64,000 nucleotides of DNA from Cunninghamella blakesleeana (taxonomy: Eukaryota; Mucoromycota; Mucoromycetes; Mucorales; Cunninghamellaceae). Below are positions 49,502-60,600 of this stretch, piece by piece; the stretch's first letter is position 1; each line of letters starts with the position of its first letter. Both the position numbers and the translations under genes were made by a program. Location: contig JAFCIZ010000002.1 in assembly GCA_017871115.1 (NCBI GenBank), forward strand, positions 744,001 through 808,000. The letters are read 5' to 3'. The notes under the pieces were generated by a model. It ran no database searches. It was not told where the DNA came from and saw nothing but the letters and a program-made list of their open reading frames with translations.

Positions 49502-50149
49502 TGCTATTTCTGGATTACATAATTTTATACTATTTCCCCACAATAAATGAATTCCCTAGATGCACAGAGAAGTAAAAAAAAAAAGTAGACTGAGTTTCAA
49601 CTATTTTTATTTCATTCTAAATATTTTTTTAAAAAATTTAATCAACCTGTCCTTAACCGTTGAGTGATTTTATATAACAGAAAAAGTGTATTCAGTATGG
49701 TTAAAAACAAGCTAGAAACATTTGGTAAGACAACCCCATTTTATATCCCCGATATTCAGTTGGATGGATTTTTTTCAGAACATAGCGAACTTAAATCATT
49801 CATATACCAAAGGGGCAATCTAAAAATGAAAAAAGAAAATACATATATATATATAAATGTTATTAACATTTATATTAAAATATGAATAAACAAAACTATA
49901 TAATTTATTATTGTTTACTTTATTATAGAACATAATATGTAATAGCAAATCAAGTCAAGTTGGAACGTAAAGATATATAAACCAGGCACACATAAGAAAC
50001 ATGACAGTAAAACATATGCATAGCCATCATGAGAGTAGACCATTTAAATTTTATTATATTAATATAAAAAATAAAGAGAAAGCAAAAGAAATATAAAGAG
50101 TATTATATATACTCTTTATTACGTAGTATTTTCACTTCATTATATTTTT

Positions 50150-50340
50150 TATAATGACAAAAATAAATAGCTTCATTTCAGAATATAAATAAAAAATGAT
50201 CATCATTATTCTACCTATTTTTTATTTACTATTATAAATTAATAGTGTCGTGTTATATAGCATTTTATAAAAAATTTGATTAGTCGCTTGTTACCTGTGT
50301 GTTACCCTGTGTGCCTAACATGCCAGTATTTAATATAATC
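50150..50340 (+). repeat. Relic copy of the 3' flank of the HNH-repeat genes
   Basis: CATTTCAGAATATAAATAAA (around 50174-50193) recurs after the second HNH-repeat gene (around 57364-57383). In both places further similar pieces follow in the same order: a CTATTATAAA block, a TGTTAT block and a GTTAC(C/T)CT block. This suggests that a unit ending here once stood upstream of the present two genes. The alignment is by eye and gapped. Confidence 0.4.
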
Positions 50341-50655
50341 TAAATTTGATTAAAAAAGAAATTGAATTATAATACCAATGAAGTGGGTGGCATGAAAAAA
50401 GATGAAAAAATGATGGTAAAATAAATATATCAGATATAATAATTTTATTGATTAAAAAATATTACAAAATTAAAGAAAATTCTCAATTGTAACCTGCTCA
50501 AATTTAAAAATCTGAAGAAAAAAGACTGTATTTAAAAATATACGTGCTTTATATTTTTTAAATAAGCTTTATTCAATTCTCATTGTTTCTTTCAATTTTT
50601 TTAAAAATATATTACAATCATTACCATTGTTATTGTAGCAATATATTAGTAAATT

Positions 50656-50687
<32 letters not shown>

Positions 50688-51177
50688 TACTATAATAGCA
50701 ATAATAACAAATTAATTTTATTTACTGCTACTATTATATTATTTGTTTTTAAGCGATTTATTCTATTTTTATTAAAATATATTTATATACATATTGAGTA
50801 TTTTTATATTGGAAATAATAATACTAATAATTACAAGTCATTCAAAGGCGATATTATATTACAAGCGGACAAGGTACAATATACACAATAATAAGTAAAA
50901 TATATGAAGTTTGTTGCTATTATTATTAATATTTTGGTATAAACAGAGTAATGCCCATTATTGAGTACATTAATACATAAATAAAGACACAATGGTTTTT
51001 TATCCTTACCTATTGTTTTTTCAAACAATTGTTTATAAAAAACAAAAATTATTTTCTTTTTTATACATTCTTTTGTTTTTGTTATTACTATTATCATTAT
51101 TACTTTTCAATAACTTTTATCGACTATATCAATTATATTAAAGATAACTTTCTATTAAAATAATAATATTATCGTAC

Positions 51178-51455
51178 ATGTTCAACTACAAGCGATCAAT
51201 ATCTCGAGAAAATGTTTTTTCCAACCACAATAATAATTTTAAATTACCTTCTATATCTTCAACAAATCTTAAGCGTCAACGAACCAATTTTTGGCCAAGG
51301 TCAAGAATCTCAGTAATTGGTACAAAAAGAACTATTTCTCAACAGATATCTTCTAATAAACGCCATCTAATAAATAATGAAATAAATAATCAGTCAAAAG
51401 GTCAACCAAATAATATTCAACGTAAATTATAAAATAAAATAAAATAATATTTAGT

Positions 51456-51491
<36 letters not shown>

Positions 51492-53518
51492 CAAATTTCA
51501 ATGCTTTTATATTTAGGCTCTATCGCTTCTTCTTCTTCTCATTCTCAATCTGTTTCTGTTCCTCAAGCTATTAATAACACCTATAACGACACTTCTTTTG
51601 GAGCTTTTCAACATTTTACCAATAATAACCAAGCTAGCCCTCCTAGCAGTGGTGATACAGATGGTAAAGTAAAATATATAAATATAACATGCATATATGA
51701 CTATATAATTCAAAAATAACTAATTGATCTTTTATTTTATTTTTTATTTCGACTATAGATAGTGTTGATTTGGAAGATGATGGTGACTATTTTAGAGGTA
51801 TATTAATCTGATATTTTTTATTTATTTATTTATATATTTATATAACCTTATTTTATTTTAAAAAAAGAGCACACTTACTAACTTAATAAACTTTAGTACC
51901 TCTTAATTCTAGGAGAATTCGGGGCGTTCATGGCTTTACAATAAATACTGATGGAATTGTTTACACTGCAACTGGCATAAAAGCTGATCTTGATATTATT
52001 TGTGGAATTCCTTATGTATCCTTAGTAAACAATTATGATGAACAACGTGTTCCTCTGGAAGAAATTATGATAGATACTTTTATGCGTACTTTAGTTGATC
52101 ATGGCACTTTGAATAATTACGTACTAATACACCGCAATGGAGATAAAACGAACTGTAGTCTTAGTAATCTAGAACTACGTGAACTATTTCCACTTCAATC
52201 AAGAATTGATGTACCAGAGACACTCCCAGATGCATTTAAAATTGATATTTATGGAAATATTTATAAAGATAAACAACTTATAGAATCAATACATCATGAA
52301 ACTGGCCATTTTATCATTCCTTTCCAATACGACGATAATAAATACGATATACCTTGTAAACAATTGGTAATAGATTCTTTCTCTAATGGTTTTCAGCAAA
52401 AATATTATCGTATCGCTCATATAGATGGTGATGTACAAAATAACAGTTTATCTAATTTACGTTTTATGGATTCCGATAGTTTCGTAAAACATATGGCGCA
52501 AGTTTTTCAAAGGTTATACGGTCGTCATAAAGAAGAATTTCGATCTTTTATTGATATAGAATTTGATGATTATTTATACTCGTTTTCTAAAAAATACATT
52601 ATTACTAATTTGGGTGCAATTTACAATATCGAAGAAAATAGAATGGTAACGCCAATAACATTACCTTGCGGTTCCCTTGGTGTTGAATTGATTAGTGAAT
52701 CTAGAAGAAATAATGAATCAAAAAGTAAGGTGCTCCCTATTGATGAATTGGTCACTTTACATTTTATTGGGGAACAGCCGAATTATCATCGTATTCGCCA
52801 TATAAATAATAATGTAACAGACAACTCTATCACTAATCTGGACTATATTCCTGAATCTGAAGAGGCTTTCCTACCTACACCTAATGATATTCATTTGACA
52901 ATACCTACACCAAAATGGAAAACACCTAATTATCAAGTACATAATAATCTTATTATTGATAATAGGTTGCAACCTGACATATTTCTTAATGATGGTTGGA
53001 CAACACTTGACACTGTTCACGGCCTCACTTTTGAAAATTATTATATTTCGGCAAGAAAAGCTATCGTAATGAGTTTTGATGGAGAAACTGCATCATTATT
53101 ACCTATTAAACACCTTGGGAAAGGCTATAAAATAATAGAATTGTTTGATACTGAAGGAATAAAACATAAATTCTATGTTCATTTACTAATGGCCTGGAAG
53201 TTTTGTGAAGGCGAAAGTAACACCCGAAATATTATTTATTATAGGAATGGAGATAGGAATGATAATAGCTCAAGAAATTTAGAATGGCAGTCAATTAATG
53301 ACAATAGAATTGCAATTTTTGCAAGGCCTATAGTGATCACAGATGTAAACGATCCCCAAATAACTCAAACATATTCAACCATTGGAAAAGCTCAAGCTGA
53401 TCTCCCTTATAATTGCATTTATTATTGGCTGGGTGAAAGAGAATTTATTGCTACCATTAGTCGAGCATTTTGGAAGAATAAATGGAGAGTACTTTCACTT
53501 CAACGCCTAGATGAATAA
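51178..53518 (+). CDS. Tetra-repeat HNH/NUMOD-like protein, copy 1
   Basis: Seen: four exons (51178-51421, 51517-51663, 51759-51797, 51897-53518), all with phase-1 introns, give 683 residues. Residues 1-140 are basic, Ser/Asn/Gln-rich and end acidic. Then come four diverged units of about 85-95 residues. Each has a beta-hairpin part (GFTINTDGIVYT, AFKIDIYGNIY, KYIITNLGAIYN) followed by an HNH-like segment: IHRNGDKTNCSLSNLEL (H222), AHIDGDVQNNSLSNLRF (H318), RHINNNVTDNSITNLDY (H445) and, after FYVHLLMAWKF, YYRNGDRNDNSSRNLEW (to 607). Residues 618-660 (ITDVNDPQITQTYSTIGKAQ) resemble NUMOD1. Known: NUMOD4-HNH-NUMOD1 is the layout of many homing endonucleases of phages and organelles, normally with one HNH. 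Inferred: a nuclear, spliced, multi-unit derivative, either DNA-binding or nuclease. The upstream His is missing in units 1-3 and present only in unit 4. Function unknown. Confidence 0.8.
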
Positions 53519-53606
53519 CAAAAAAAAATTTAATATAAAGGTAATTTTTCGTATATTTAACTTTTTTCTATTCATTTTATATAAATATAAATATATATCA
53601 TACAGT

Positions 53607-53653
<47 letters not shown>

Positions 53654-54657
53654 AACTAAATAAAGGACATGAATAATAATATAAAAACATTATACATAGT
53701 ATATGAAACCAAATAATATCCATTTTTTAACGAGATCTACGTTGCAATTATTAGTTTTTTCAGATAAACGAAAATTCTACAATTAGTTGTTTATCTTTGT
53801 AACTAAATTGTAATATAAAAATAACAGTAGTAACAAAAATACTCTACCAAAAAAAATACCATGAAATCCTCTAGTACAAATACTTGTAGTGTTGAATAAT
53901 TACTCGCAAGTTAAAAAACATATTAATAAAATATAGAATAAAATCAATCAAATTATTCATTTTATATGACCCTATACGCAAGAAAAAAACAAGAATTATT
54001 ATTCTTTCTCTTTTACAAAAAAAATAGCAAATAATTATGTGCACATAAAATAAAAGAAAAAAAAAAATTTTTTTTTTAAAAAAAAAGGTATGCAGAGAAA
54101 AAAAATATGCAGTTTTTACTAGAAAGGGAATGTTTCCATAAAGTTTCGGTGCTTAAATCTTTATGCGCTTAATTTTTTTATAAAAACTCTTTTTCATTGT
54201 TCTTTTCTTTAAGTTTTCTATAAATATATTTCCATCATTGTTATTTTTATTGTTATAGCATATTATTATATATACTATTGTTATAATAACATTAGTCTCT
54301 TTTCACTCACTGTTATCAATCTATTAATGATCTTTAAAACAATATATTTTATTTACTTATTTTTAAACATAACTTTCTAATATATATAAAGTACTTTCAC
54401 GTTAGAAAATAACGATAATGGACTTTACGAGATGTTCAAAATGAAGACTAAATTATATTACAAACTCACACTATATATTATATACTATAACAATTAAGGA
54501 ATATGACGCTTATTATTATTGTTTTTATTTTTGTATAAACAAAATGATAAAAACGTAAATATATATAAAAGCTCACTGTTTCTTTATTTAATCAGTATTA
54601 AGCTCAATAATGAACCCCAAATAGTTATATATATAAACAATATTCCTTTATCGTCTT

Positions 54658-54700
<43 letters not shown>

Positions 54701-54800
54701 TATAAATTCACTTTTATTATTATTATCTACACGTTTATTCAGTAGATTTTATTAATTATAACAATTTTATTTTACTTTATTTAAAAAAATATAACTACAC
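53519..54800. other. Spacer between the two HNH-repeat genes
   Basis: About 1.3 kb, A/T-rich, with a T(n)A(n) block near 53608-53656 and a (TA)n run at 54661-54694. Its right half parallels the promoter of copy 1: similar blocks around ATTGTTAT(TG)TAGCA and TTTGTATAAACAAA occur in the same order. No coding exon recognised. Confidence 0.55.
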
Positions 54801-57234
54801 ATGTTCAACTATAAACGAGCAAGACCACGTTCACCATTATCTAGTAACTCAAATAGTCGACGACATACATCATCTAGTAAACGCAAATATCAACAATGTA
54901 CACCAACTAATAATGCAAGTCTCCAAAAAGTATCATCAAATAATAATCTAAATCATCAGCAGCAGAGTTTGCTTAACAATACAACACAGCAATCACTCCT
55001 ACTATCTAGTAATTCACGTGGATATGAAAATACCCCAGTTCCTATTGACACCCATAAAGATTATTTTAAAGGAGGACCTCGACCTATATTAGCAAGAAAT
55101 AGTCTTTATTTTGCCTATACTTCAAGAGCAATCACTCCAGGGGGTAGTTTAAAAAGAAAAACTATTGAATGTATAAATATTTCCAAACGACGTAGGCTAT
55201 ATCAAAAATTAGCTGAATCATATATCTGTGATGGTAACTTTTATAAAACAAAATAGAATAAAAACAGCATATATATATATATATATAATGTTGTTAATAC
55301 TAATAATTCATATCATATTATAGCCAATAGCTAATACTAATATGAATACCTTTCTTTTAATACTATCCAATTTCATTTATAGCTAATCCGCCTAGTCCTA
55401 TTGGTAAAATGAATTAAATAATCATATTTCATTATTATTATTAATTTTATAAATAAAAATTACTAACTAATACACTTTATAATATTTTTATATTTTATTT
55501 TAGGTACTCATGGCTTTTATGATAGAATGCATCGGAGAGGTATCTAAATTTATGCACACACACACATACATACTAATATATAATAAAAAAATAATAACAA
55601 ACTTATTAATATAAAAAATAGTTCCTGTTATTTCTAGAATCTTTAACAACACTTATGGCTATTTAATTGACACAAATGGAAATGTTTACACATCTAATAA
55701 AGAGTTACTTCCTCGTATTGGTACTGGACTTGCTACTGTATATATAAGAGAACATAATGTTCATGTGCCTATTGATGAAATGATGGTGGACACTTTTTTA
55801 TACAACCATTTTGAAGTAGCCAGAGCAGATAATTATTACATATTACACATTAACGGGGATCCAGCTGATTCTACACTTAATAATCTACAACTACGGCAAC
55901 TATTTCCAATTAAAACTAGACGTGATAAAACTGCACCAACTATAGCAGATCATGAGCGACAAACAGCAAACCATTCAATTCCTGGACATTATAGAATTGA
56001 TAAATTTGGAATTACCTACGATCACAAATGCCCTGTTACACCACAAATCACTGATAATGGTCACTTTGTGATGGTTTTTAATTATATATATAATGGGACA
56101 TACTATAACTATTCTATACCGATTAAAGAACTAATGGCAGATACTTTTTTAAATGGAATTCAGCATCAGCATCAAACAATTGTTCATATAGATCGCAACA
56201 TAGATAATAATAGACTAACTAATTTATGTTTGATGGACCATGTTAGATTTACTCATCAAGAATTAAAATATTTACAAGAATTATATGGCCATAATGGAGA
56301 AGAATTTCGTCGTATAGAAAATGTAATCCTCAAAAATAAACGGCTAAATTACGGTGACAAATATTTAGTATCAAACAAAGGGAAGGTCTACTCGCTGCTA
56401 TCATTAAGATTGCTATCATCCTTTGTTTTGAAAGATGGGTGTCTTGGCGTTACTTTAACAAGAACTAATGAATATCAAGAACTAATAAAAGACTATATTC
56501 CTGTTGATATTCTAGTTGCTTCAACTTTTATTGGGACAATTCCTCCTGATCATCATGTTCGTTATATTACTCCTAATTATCTTAACCCTTCATTGGACAA
56601 TCTGGATTATTTTCCTAATTCTGAAGTAGCTTACATGCCCCGAGATACTGATCGTTTACAAACAATTCAAGAAAGTGTTGCATCTAGAGATTGGCCTAAC
56701 GAAACAAATCAATGGGTAAACCTTGGATATTTAAATAATCATGATTTTACACACTATCGACTATCAAATCAAGGACAAATCATAGATACTAGAATTCAGA
56801 ATGAATATCATGTTTATACAAAATATAGAAACGGATATATCACGTGTAATTTATATGACAGCACTAATACTCTTCATGAATTTTATATACATCGATTAAT
56901 AGCTATCTATTTTTGTCGTGGTCGATCCTACTCTTGTAATACAGTTCAACATCTTGATGGCAACCCTTCAAATAATAACTCATTAAATTTATTATGGACG
57001 GGTATCTCTGAAAGTTCAACAGCACCTTTAGGAATACCTCTTATCATTACTGATGTCTACCAAACTGATTTATTCCAACGATACAATTCTATTGGGCGCG
57101 CTCAGGCAGATTTCCCTTGTAATAATCTTTATTTTTGGTTATTTAGAGTTACTAAAGAAGTTATTATTAGGAATGCTTTTTGGAAAGATCAATGGAGAAC
57201 TGTAAGAGTCAATTTAATCGTAGAAGATTTATAA
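54801..57234 (+). CDS. Tetra-repeat HNH/NUMOD-like protein, copy 2
   Basis: Seen: four exons (54801-55233, 55383-55403, 55504-55539, 55622-57234), all phase-1 introns as in copy 1, give 700 residues. The N-terminus MFNYKRARPRSPLSSNS starts with the same six residues as copy 1, is Arg/Ser/Gln-rich, and holds basic clusters (SSSKRKYQQ, SKRRRLYQK) that could be nuclear localisation signals. The two central exons are only 21 and 36 bases. Four units follow from about residue 164: LHINGDPADSTLNNLQL, VHIDRNIDNNRLTNLCL, a degenerate RYITPNYLNPSLDNLDY, and QHLDGNPSNNNSLNLLW (to 622). The last unit is preceded by FYIHRLIAIYF, giving H587, H607, N615 and N619 in near-canonical HNH positions. IITDVYQTDLFQRYNSIGRA near 639-658 is NUMOD1-like; the end AFWKDQWR is shared with copy 1. 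Inferred: paralogue by old tandem duplication, kept intact, so probably under selection. Confidence 0.8.
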
Positions 57235-57637
57235 TTTTTTTTATTGTTATACATATATACACAAGTTTATGTATTTACATTTATATCATCTATATTTATA
57301 TTTTATAGTTTTTTATTTTTAATCTTTTTTATTTCTACTTTTATAATAAAAATGGAAAATACTGCATTTCAGAATATAAATAAAGAGCATACTATATATT
57401 TGCTATTATTATAAACCAATAATATTTTGTTATTACGTTTTATCACTATAATGTTACTCTTTACCTACATCATCTTGAAACATAAACATTGTAATTTTTA
57501 TACTAAAAAAAAGAAGAGAGCCTTTTTACTTAATTTATTATAGATAAGTACGTTACATGATTCATTCGATTTTTAAAAAAAAATACACGAGTTTTTTTCT
57601 TTTTTCTTTTTCTTTTTCTTTTTTTTTTTTAATTGCT
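57235..57637. other. Intergenic region between copy 2 and CCH1 3' end
   Basis: About 400 bases of A/T-rich 3' sequence between converging genes. It includes the flank segment (57340-57480) that recurs upstream of copy 1. Pyrimidine runs near 57597-57630. No gene. Confidence 0.6.
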
Positions 57638-60600
57638 TTATTCTACTGATAATTCTTGAAGTAGATCTAGTTTATATATAATAGGAAAATAAAAGTTAAT
57701 ATGTAATGGTAAAAACATTCATAGACTACATTTAATTTCCTTAAATGAAAAAATTAAAAAAAAAAAAAACCTACCACACCATTCATTATCTTCTAGTTTT
57801 TTAACAATAGAAATTACATCTGAAAAACCCATACTGTCTACATTTGATTCTTGTGCATAATAAACGGTAAAGGCATCGACAGGGCCGCTAATAGTATTAC
57901 TAATAATATTTTCACTTCCAGCTTTCATTTTCCCTTTCAATTTTGAAGTTGGTTTTGATTCATATAAAGGAGCCTCATTTGAATATGATGATGTTAATGT
58001 TAATGGATTATTGAAATGATTTAAAGAAGCATTGCGTTTATGATTTGATTGAGATAAGTTTACTCGATTACCATTGGATGGAAAAACGAATGGTGATGAT
58101 GACGATGGTGATGATGATGATGATGAAGCCGTGTTTGCAAATTGATAATGACTCCCATCATTAAAACCTGAAAGGTGTTCAAATACGCCTGAAGGTTGTA
58201 AAAGAGAAGGGTTCGAATGACTTGAATTTTCATATTTAAGAGTTTCTTCTTTATTATCTTTTTTGTTTGGTGATAAATTGATAACAATGGCTGGTACAGG
58301 TGAACCAGATGGAGATATAGATGAGGTCGGTGTTTGGGTCCGTACTAAAAATTTATTTGTTAATTCATGACTTGGTAATTCTTGAAGTGATTTATTATTA
58401 TTTTGATGGTCAATGTTATTTATATCATATATGTTATTATTATTTTGGTTAATTGTTTCAATAATAACCGAGCTACGTTTTAATTCATATTCATCCGATA
58501 TATCTGATATACTATCACCACTTGTTGATGTCGAGCTAGTACCATATAGTTCCTCATTTATTATTTGTTTGTCACGGTATTGCTGCCGATATTTGATATA
58601 TTTTTGACGTTGTTTAAGCATCCTAACAACATTTTCAATCTTTTCCTGTGCTAATATTTTGTTGATATTTTCTTGTTGTCGCGAATATTGTACAAATCTA
58701 TCGAATCTATTATTATTATTATAAAATATAAATAATATAATATAAAAATTTTAATCATATGTAAGTACCAGAGTATAAATTATATCATTCGTGTGAAATT
58801 TAAACTTACGTAAGTGCCTTTGTTGGATCTACAAGACGTAATGTAAGAATTTCAAGTGTATCATGAAAGGAAATACCTCTTGAAGTATTTGATAATAATA
58901 GCTCCTAAGTTATAAATATATATTTATAATTATGTATATATGTACGTATTAGTTTATTATTTTACAATAATTATTTATTTCCTATTATCATAATTATTCA
59001 ATTTTACCTGATACAAATGATTGTAATTATCCTTATTTTTTCGTATAGCTGATAAATCCATTGTAGAAAGCTCTTTGTTGACTTCATAAAAATTATAATA
59101 ACGTTCACCCAAAATATTATTAGATGCGAATTGATGGTAAAGTCTAGCTGAACATAATGGTACTGATGCTAAATGATTGACATCAATATCTTCACGATCA
59201 CTTGCTTTTAATAAATTATCTAAGGTATGAGGTTCACTGTATATACGAACACATAAATTTCCTTGTAGATTCTAAAGTAATTTAAAATGAAAATGGAAAA
59301 GACCTTATATATATTAATAACCAAAATAAATTATCGTCTTTTTTTTTTATATGCACTTTATTATATTTAAAAAAAAGTCTTACACGTAAAAACCTAGGTA
59401 TATCTTGTTTCTGGATATATCCTGTCGCCATTGGATCATATTCTGCCCATGCATCCTTAAAACTACATAACAGCATCATAAAATATTATAAAAAAAAAAT
59501 GATCAGACATAATTGTATTAGTCTTTATATATATATATATATATATTTAAAAAAAATGCGTATTATTTTACAATCGTATATCTTTTCGTGTTATGATTGT
59601 AAGTTGACTTTGCTTATCAATAGTAAATGAAAAATTGTTTATAACAATCTAAATAATATAAAAATATAAAAAAAAATATTATTATTATTATTAATACCCT
59701 CATTAATATAATGGGTTATTAATAAAAACCAAAATAAACTTACCACCGTAAAAAGATTAACAAAAATGTAGGTACAAACGACATAAAACAAAATAAATAA
59801 TATATAGGCAGCTACATGTGATCCACAGTCTTTTCCTTCTACACAATTTGGAGGTTCTTTTGAAAAATCATGCATCAGAAAATCCTAAATCCAGTTGATA
59901 TGAAGAGTATTCTTATAAGTTTATCAGTACCTTTATATATTTATATTTATTACTCCTGTCATAATTTACCCAGTTCTCGCCAGTAGTCATTCGAAACAAA
60001 GTCAACACTGATATTCCAATAGTTCTAAAGTTTGCATTATGATGCCCATATGGCCCATAAGATGTATTATCAAACAATTCTTGAAATATAACTGCGAATA
60101 TAAATATCACAAAAGTAAATACACCTGTAGTATAGGCAATGGATGGAAGCGCTTTCCTATATAATAATATTAATAGATAAAAAAAAAATACTATTAAATA
60201 TCGCTCTTTATATTTAGTTTATATTTATGTTTTTATAAATTTTTAAATTTACTTAATTGCTTTAAGAAGAGTATCTAGAGATTCAATCCTTCTAGCTAGA
60301 CGGAAAGCCAAAGCAATTTGAGCAAGATGAAAAATCACGTCAAGTAAAAACTATACAAAGTTTTTTAAAAAAAATGGAAGAAAAAAGTGAAAATGAAAAA
60401 ATCAGCATATCAATTTTAAATTATATATTATTTGTGAGTAAATTAATAAAACTTACTGAATCATTGATCAAGCTTCTTAATATACAAGTAGTAATAGCTA
60501 TTTAAAAAAAAATGAAAAACATATATATATATATATATGCGAAATTGAATATAAAATAAAATTAAATAGCCTTATAAACTACGAATGAAAACATATATTG

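Follow-up and report, generated by a model that had tools for sequence, protein, structure and literature searches.

Domesticated nucleases sometimes become sequence-specific DNA-binding factors, and to our knowledge few domesticated homing nucleases are known. Plant AP2 is thought to have retained only a DNA-binding module, and the HO endonuclease belongs to a different fold family and has kept its catalysis. HO, a domesticated homing element of yeast, sets a precedent in the fungal nucleus (PMC7282813). The closest described counterpart of the genes reported here is I-HmuI (PDB 1u3e), an HNH homing endonuclease with one unit in a 174-residue chain and the catalytic residues D74, H75, and N96 (PMC12724721). 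We compared it with two tandem genes, g1 and g2, that lie on the plus strand of a 64,000-nucleotide stretch of the Cunninghamella blakesleeana genome (the window; GCA_017871115.1, contig JAFCIZ010000002.1, positions 744,001 to 808,000) at 51178-53518 and 54801-57234. The window is inside a 4.1-Mb contig of a 31.9-Mb genome assembled in 12 contigs. Unlike I-HmuI, g1 and g2 sit in a fungal nuclear genome with predicted introns, and each encodes four units, none of which is complete. From the sequences and structure models, we think that they are probably retained host pseudonucleases, conserved in fold and catalytically dead, that derive from a multi-unit homing-type nuclease.

The features of the two genes are given below in window coordinates. 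Bit scores are from the unit hidden Markov model (HMM), and residues are those at I-HmuI positions 74/75/96.

51178..53518, plus strand: gene g1, 683 amino acids; exons 51178-51421, 51517-51663, 51759-51797, and 51897-53518
51178..51913, plus strand: g1 N-terminal extension, 149 amino acids, Ser/Asn-rich, net charge +6; holds three introns
51914..52177, plus strand: g1 unit 1, 25.2 bits, I/H/L
52235..52471, plus strand: g1 unit 2, 36.9 bits, A/H/F
52589..52861, plus strand: g1 unit 3, 42.0 bits, R/H/E
53030..53305, plus strand: g1 unit 4, 37.6 bits, Y/Y/N; phmmer match to 1u3e, E 0.0012
53306..53515, plus strand: g1 C-terminal tail, without Pfam match (searched as 53321-53515)
54801..57234, plus strand: gene g2, 700 amino acids; exons 54801-55233, 55383-55403, 55504-55539, and 55622-57234
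54801..55644, plus strand: g2 N-terminal extension, 171 amino acids, net charge +21, with KRAR/KRK/KRRR clusters; holds three introns
55645..55893, plus strand: g2 unit 1, 26.3 bits, L/H/I
55990..56232, plus strand: g2 unit 2, 27.2 bits, V/H/F
56356..56619, plus strand: g2 unit 3, 29.4 bits, R/Y/V
56743..57003, plus strand: g2 unit 4, 50.8 bits, Q/H/S
57004..57231, plus strand: g2 C-terminal tail, without Pfam match (searched as 57028-57231)

An earlier reading made from the sequence alone (the sequence-only reading) had described four HNH-like units per protein, and HNH_3, PHROG 959, and the unit HMM each find four. Pfam HNH_3 (PF13392) matched four stretches in g1 (E 8.5e-18, 64.2 bits) and four in g2 (E 7.8e-15, 54.7 bits), above the cut-off of 24.8 bits, which places both proteins in the HNH_3 / I-HmuI-like family. 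PHROG 959 (HNH endonuclease) also matched four stretches in each (E 2.1e-40 and 9e-41). The unit HMM was trained solely on the non-Cunninghamella proteins P0004-P0059 (114 units), and its top domain in 1,000 shuffled controls (500 per protein) scored 8.5 bits, compared with the unit scores listed above. A search of both proteins against NCBIfam returned zero matches.

Profiles recovered the proposed NUMOD4-like hairpin only in part. NUMOD4 (PF07463) gave a sub-threshold match in g2 (16.1 bits against a cut-off of 23.4, E 0.014) and no match in g1 in the Pfam profile search. In the whole genome there were three NUMOD4 matches, and only that in a third four-unit gene, on contig C10, exceeded the cut-off (33.2 bits, E 6e-8). 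The NUMOD1-like tail of the sequence-only reading was dropped, because Pfam showed no match to NUMOD1 (PF07453) in either tail at E <= 10. The tail of the C10 protein gave a sub-threshold NUMOD1 match (E 0.13).

The segments are HNH-derived, as that reading had said, but it overlooked the state of their active sites. A complete D74/H75/N96 triad, which a functional HNH homing endonuclease needs, is present in none of the eight g1 and g2 units. Not one of them retains the residue at position 74, and six retain H75; position 96, which the profile aligned only in g1 unit 4, was read by eye in the other units at NL+9, counted from the N of the NL motif. The structural positions F63, N87, and L88 are retained in 8/8 units, and seven units no longer have the otherwise conserved H56-R57 pair. 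P0001, a protein from another source with 98% identity to g1 across 483 amino acids, likewise has no complete unit. In P0060, an annotated C. echinulata protein similar to g2, the motifs of units 1, 3, and 4 are incomplete as in g2, and unit 2 is cut by a missing stretch. The C10 paralogue has two complete units of four (units 3 and 4, D/H/N). We gathered 56 relatives outside the genus by one search with the C10 protein, leaving P0061 and P0062 out of the counts and accepting D, N, or H at position 74. In these relatives 93 of 116 units are complete, and every protein has at least one complete unit. A complete unit also occurs in 138 of 150 viral frames that we fetched (stop-to-stop frames of at least 80 amino acids from 131 loci, partly the best 80 of one scan). 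By sequence, g1 and g2 look like pseudonucleases rather than readers of a long target.

The units also differ from those of relatives in charge. Net charges are -4, -3, -3, and 0 in g1 and -6, -1, -1, and +1 in g2, and the median for relatives is +5 (114 units). Divided by the state of the triad, the relatives show a median of +5 for their 93 complete units and of +2 for the 23 incomplete ones, 17 of which are at +2 or more. The g1 and g2 units fall below both the complete (p 5e-6) and the incomplete units (p 8e-5), in a comparison where related units are not independent. The positive charge of the two proteins is located in their N-terminal extensions (+6 and +21). In the C10 protein, with unit charges of -1, -2, 0, and +6, the fourth unit alone is basic. 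The absence from the g1 and g2 units of the positive net charge typical of relatives weakens the proposal that the array could read a long DNA target.

Structure prediction, one of the checks put forward with the sequence-only reading, gave a beta-beta-alpha-metal fold as in 1u3e. I-HmuI shares predicted fold, motif order, and spacing with g1 and g2; it is the sole solved relative by sequence and also the top fold match. In these models, the fold of the units is apparently kept.

Searches of the C. blakesleeana genome detected at least three family genes (g1, g2, and the C10 gene) and at least one relic:

Contig C10, about 359.9-361.8 kb, minus strand: third four-unit gene (L003), 550 amino acids, two introns in the model
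Contig C7, L012:1477-1596, minus strand: HNH_3 relic, 40-amino-acid frame, HNH_3 E 4e-4

The C10 protein and the C. echinulata proteins P0002 and P0003, from the same genome or genus, have the four-unit plan in common with g1 and g2. The C10 protein is 24-26% identical to g1 and g2, has a short N-terminus, and keeps D/H/N in units 3 and 4. Its model aligns with annotated P0003 without gaps over 550 amino acids (83.5%), and annotated C. echinulata proteins are 93% and 85% identical to the paralogue from the C. blakesleeana genome. Judged from its residues, the C10 protein is likely an active relative of g1 and g2, and the C7 relic is probably a dead family member. A weak match on contig C1 (L010, HNH_3 E 0.016) was taken for chance. 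The matches of three protein searches, with g1 (1 match among 4,667 candidates), with the C10 protein (58 among 1,670), and with a profile of g1, g2, and P0001 (3 among 3,809), included no C. echinulata protein closest to g1. P0061 (546 amino acids) matched the g1/g2 profile with 53% identity over 7% of the query; by eye it has a stretch resembling g2 unit 3 and an HNH unit of complete appearance.

Each unit of g1 is closest to the unit at the same position in g2 (35, 38, 37, and 29% identity; 12-29% for other pairs). In a tree of 129 units, built without P0001, P0002, and short rows, the four same-position pairs group with supports of 0.48, 0.93, 0.93, and 0.81. The four-unit array therefore predates the g1/g2 duplication. 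A recent internal repeat expansion is ruled out, as units within g1 or g2 are 16-34% identical and pair across the two genes by position. The loss of sites in units 1 and 2 is probably ancestral, because units 1 and 2 of the C10 protein are also incomplete; units 3 and 4 would have lost theirs on the g1/g2 branch.

Several comparisons bear on constraint. The last exons of both genes are open across about 538 codons (random-frame probability 2e-21), and both frames are still open at a g1-g2 protein identity of 34%. The g1-g2 differences avoid positions that are conserved in relatives (0/20,000 permutations), and those of the C10 protein do likewise against P0002 (8/20,000) and P0003 (7/20,000). 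Between g2 and P0060, 15 of 279 positions differ inside units and 44 of 377 outside (p 0.006).

Our preferred reading is that the ancestor was a multi-unit homing-type nuclease built of I-HmuI-type units (NUMOD4-like hairpin plus HNH_3), a less decayed paralogue of which survives on C10. The g1 and g2 proteins would no longer cut DNA, and reading of DNA through the HNH units has probably been lost as well. The HNH-fold array would most likely act as a scaffold or protein-binding surface in non-catalytic nuclear proteins, and the basic Ser/Asn-rich N-terminus may serve nuclear import or nucleic-acid contact. The precise role is a guess. The sequences suggest a new use of a former nuclease by the fungus, in which a whole array has lost its catalytic residues and basic charge with the fold apparently kept, beside a sister gene with two complete sites. 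A possibly live and a dead form could be compared within one genome.

Several points weigh against this reading. The structure models are of middling confidence, with predicted local distance difference test (pLDDT) values of 64.9 and 73.7. The comparison with relatives is biased towards complete sites because the query, the C10 protein, has complete sites, and 12 of the 150 viral frames lack a complete unit, three of these being unaligned at the triad positions. Avoidance of conserved positions was not significant for g2 against P0060 (5,255/20,000 permutations) or for g1 against P0001 (1,781/20,000), and the few g1-P0001 differences are more frequent inside units (8/279) than outside (3/204). 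The constraint tests concern protein sequences, and P0060 is known from its protein alone. Net charge gives only a rough indication of DNA binding, and the C10 protein, with two apparently complete sites, is not basic either (isoelectric point 6.7).

The predicted fold and the basic N-terminal extensions with their KR clusters would also suit an array that is catalytically dead yet still binds DNA, turned into a sequence-specific DNA-binding factor. We consider this unlikely, as all eight units are without the net positive charge still carried by most of the relatives' degenerate units, and seven lack the H56-R57 pair. It is also unlikely that g1 and g2 are slowly decaying remnants of a selfish element that now serve no function. 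The lost triads, the C7 relic, which suggests that family members die, the 44-amino-acid stretch missing in the annotated C. echinulata protein, the few copies found in the genome, and the lack of any sign of unit constraint between g1 and P0001 are in line with decay. They are opposed by the open frames, by conservation that is not random although the paralogues split deep in the past, and by the 91% identity between g2 and P0060, gapless apart from one in-frame stretch.

Pseudonucleases retained by the host remain our preferred explanation, and the sequence-only alternatives of a domesticated or a selfish family separate here: domestication is likely, and "selfish" is unsupported, because the genome searches found few family members (lower bounds), the region has no Rfam match, and the annotation of another Cunninghamella includes a similar gene. 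That g1 and g2 are selfish homing endonucleases still active, with multiplied recognition modules, is highly improbable. The homology to I-HmuI, the four units, and the two full triads of the C10 protein would fit them, but g1 and g2 have 0/8 triads and units without positive charge, Rfam gave no match at gathering scores in 50000-59000, and at least three genes and at least one relic do not make a spreading family. We rejected an active selfish nuclease for g1 and g2 on the missing triads; the idea is largely refuted, the C10 gene excepted. One genome with a four-unit paralogue that has two complete sites and two that have none could also point to an antagonist or immunity-like function, in which g1 and g2 pair with or compete against a C10-type or viral nuclease as dominant-negative decoys. 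There is very little chance of this, given an identity to the C10 protein of only about 26%.

That no such system had been described, as the sequence-only reading held, is too strong for sequences, although our literature searches found no paper describing such arrays among open-licence PMC papers. Both HNH and NUMOD4 are mentioned in PMC12220804 and PMC11878797. Proteins with three to five units exist outside the genus (for example, five in P0048 and three in P0033 and P0049), and the giant-virus HNH proteins described below align by fold, if loosely, along their full length. As in the Cunninghamella arrays, their N-terminal units are incomplete, but in each of them one unit or more is complete, whereas g1 and g2 have none. 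P0048 (637 amino acids, carried by a 7.5-kb contig) has five NUMOD4-HNH_3 units, of which units 1-3 are incomplete and the last two complete.

Many of the viral proteins that best match the g1 model by fold are HNH proteins of giant viruses (513-703 amino acids), in alignments that run the length of the model; phage proteins are also in the first ranks. Examples are HNH proteins of Marseillevirus LCMAC101 (513 amino acids), Klosneuvirus KNV1 (527 amino acids), and Pithovirus LCPAC401 (703 amino acids), with alignments of 474-559 columns including gaps. These were compared by fold alone, and over the whole array the template modeling (TM) scores are 0.12-0.19 and the root-mean-square deviations (rmsd) 25-38, so the match holds at best unit by unit. 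Among early-diverging fungi, Rhizophagus has been documented to carry DNA of giant viruses (PMC10640383); the main text of that paper mentions neither Cunninghamella nor HNH. The fold matches and this precedent therefore make a viral source possible, and a giant-virus origin is suggested by the models but not proven. Phage-type viruses as donors of a ready-made array are unsupported by the viral loci fetched, as 148 of the 150 viral frames have a single unit and two have two. When the C10 exon was the sole query against viruses, 0/16 stretches were confirmed, and units 3 and 4 of g1 and g2 have no well supported outside relative in the unit tree. It is doubtful, at rather long odds, that a Cunninghamella ancestor acquired the four-fold HNH array from a giant virus or another multi-unit carrier and duplicated it into nuclear pseudonucleases that regulate host chromatin or protect against a relative that is still active. 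If so, they would protect as dominant-negative partners, either of the C10-type nuclease or of nucleases from viruses. The case may also be informative about the exchange of genes between early-diverging fungi and large DNA viruses.

The arrangement as two tandem, nuclear, intron-bearing genes held up. They lie on the same strand, with three GT-AG introns each in the models, all phase-1 and all in the 5' part, followed by a single long last exon (in g1, open with GC per codon position of 0.44/0.32/0.21). Their predicted splicing rests on the gene models and the annotated C. echinulata protein. P0060 aligns with the g2 model without gaps over 656 amino acids (91%) once 132 nucleotides are omitted:

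56060..56191, plus strand: possible in-frame retained intron (exitron) in g2, 132 nucleotides, GTCACT...ATATAG

This stretch has GT-AG ends and matches the 44-amino-acid gap of P0060, and its excision would delete part of unit 2. From the alignment, an exitron, a deletion in C. echinulata, or an annotation artefact is possible.

Both genes stand free between neighbouring frames. A recognised self-splicing intron is absent in 50000-59000, as judged from the Rfam search. To the right, a minus-strand frame had no match in a Pfam search. Judged from translation, minus-strand frames upstream (left) of the pair are P-type ATPase-like, and a further minus-strand frame beyond the right-hand one resembles a cation channel.

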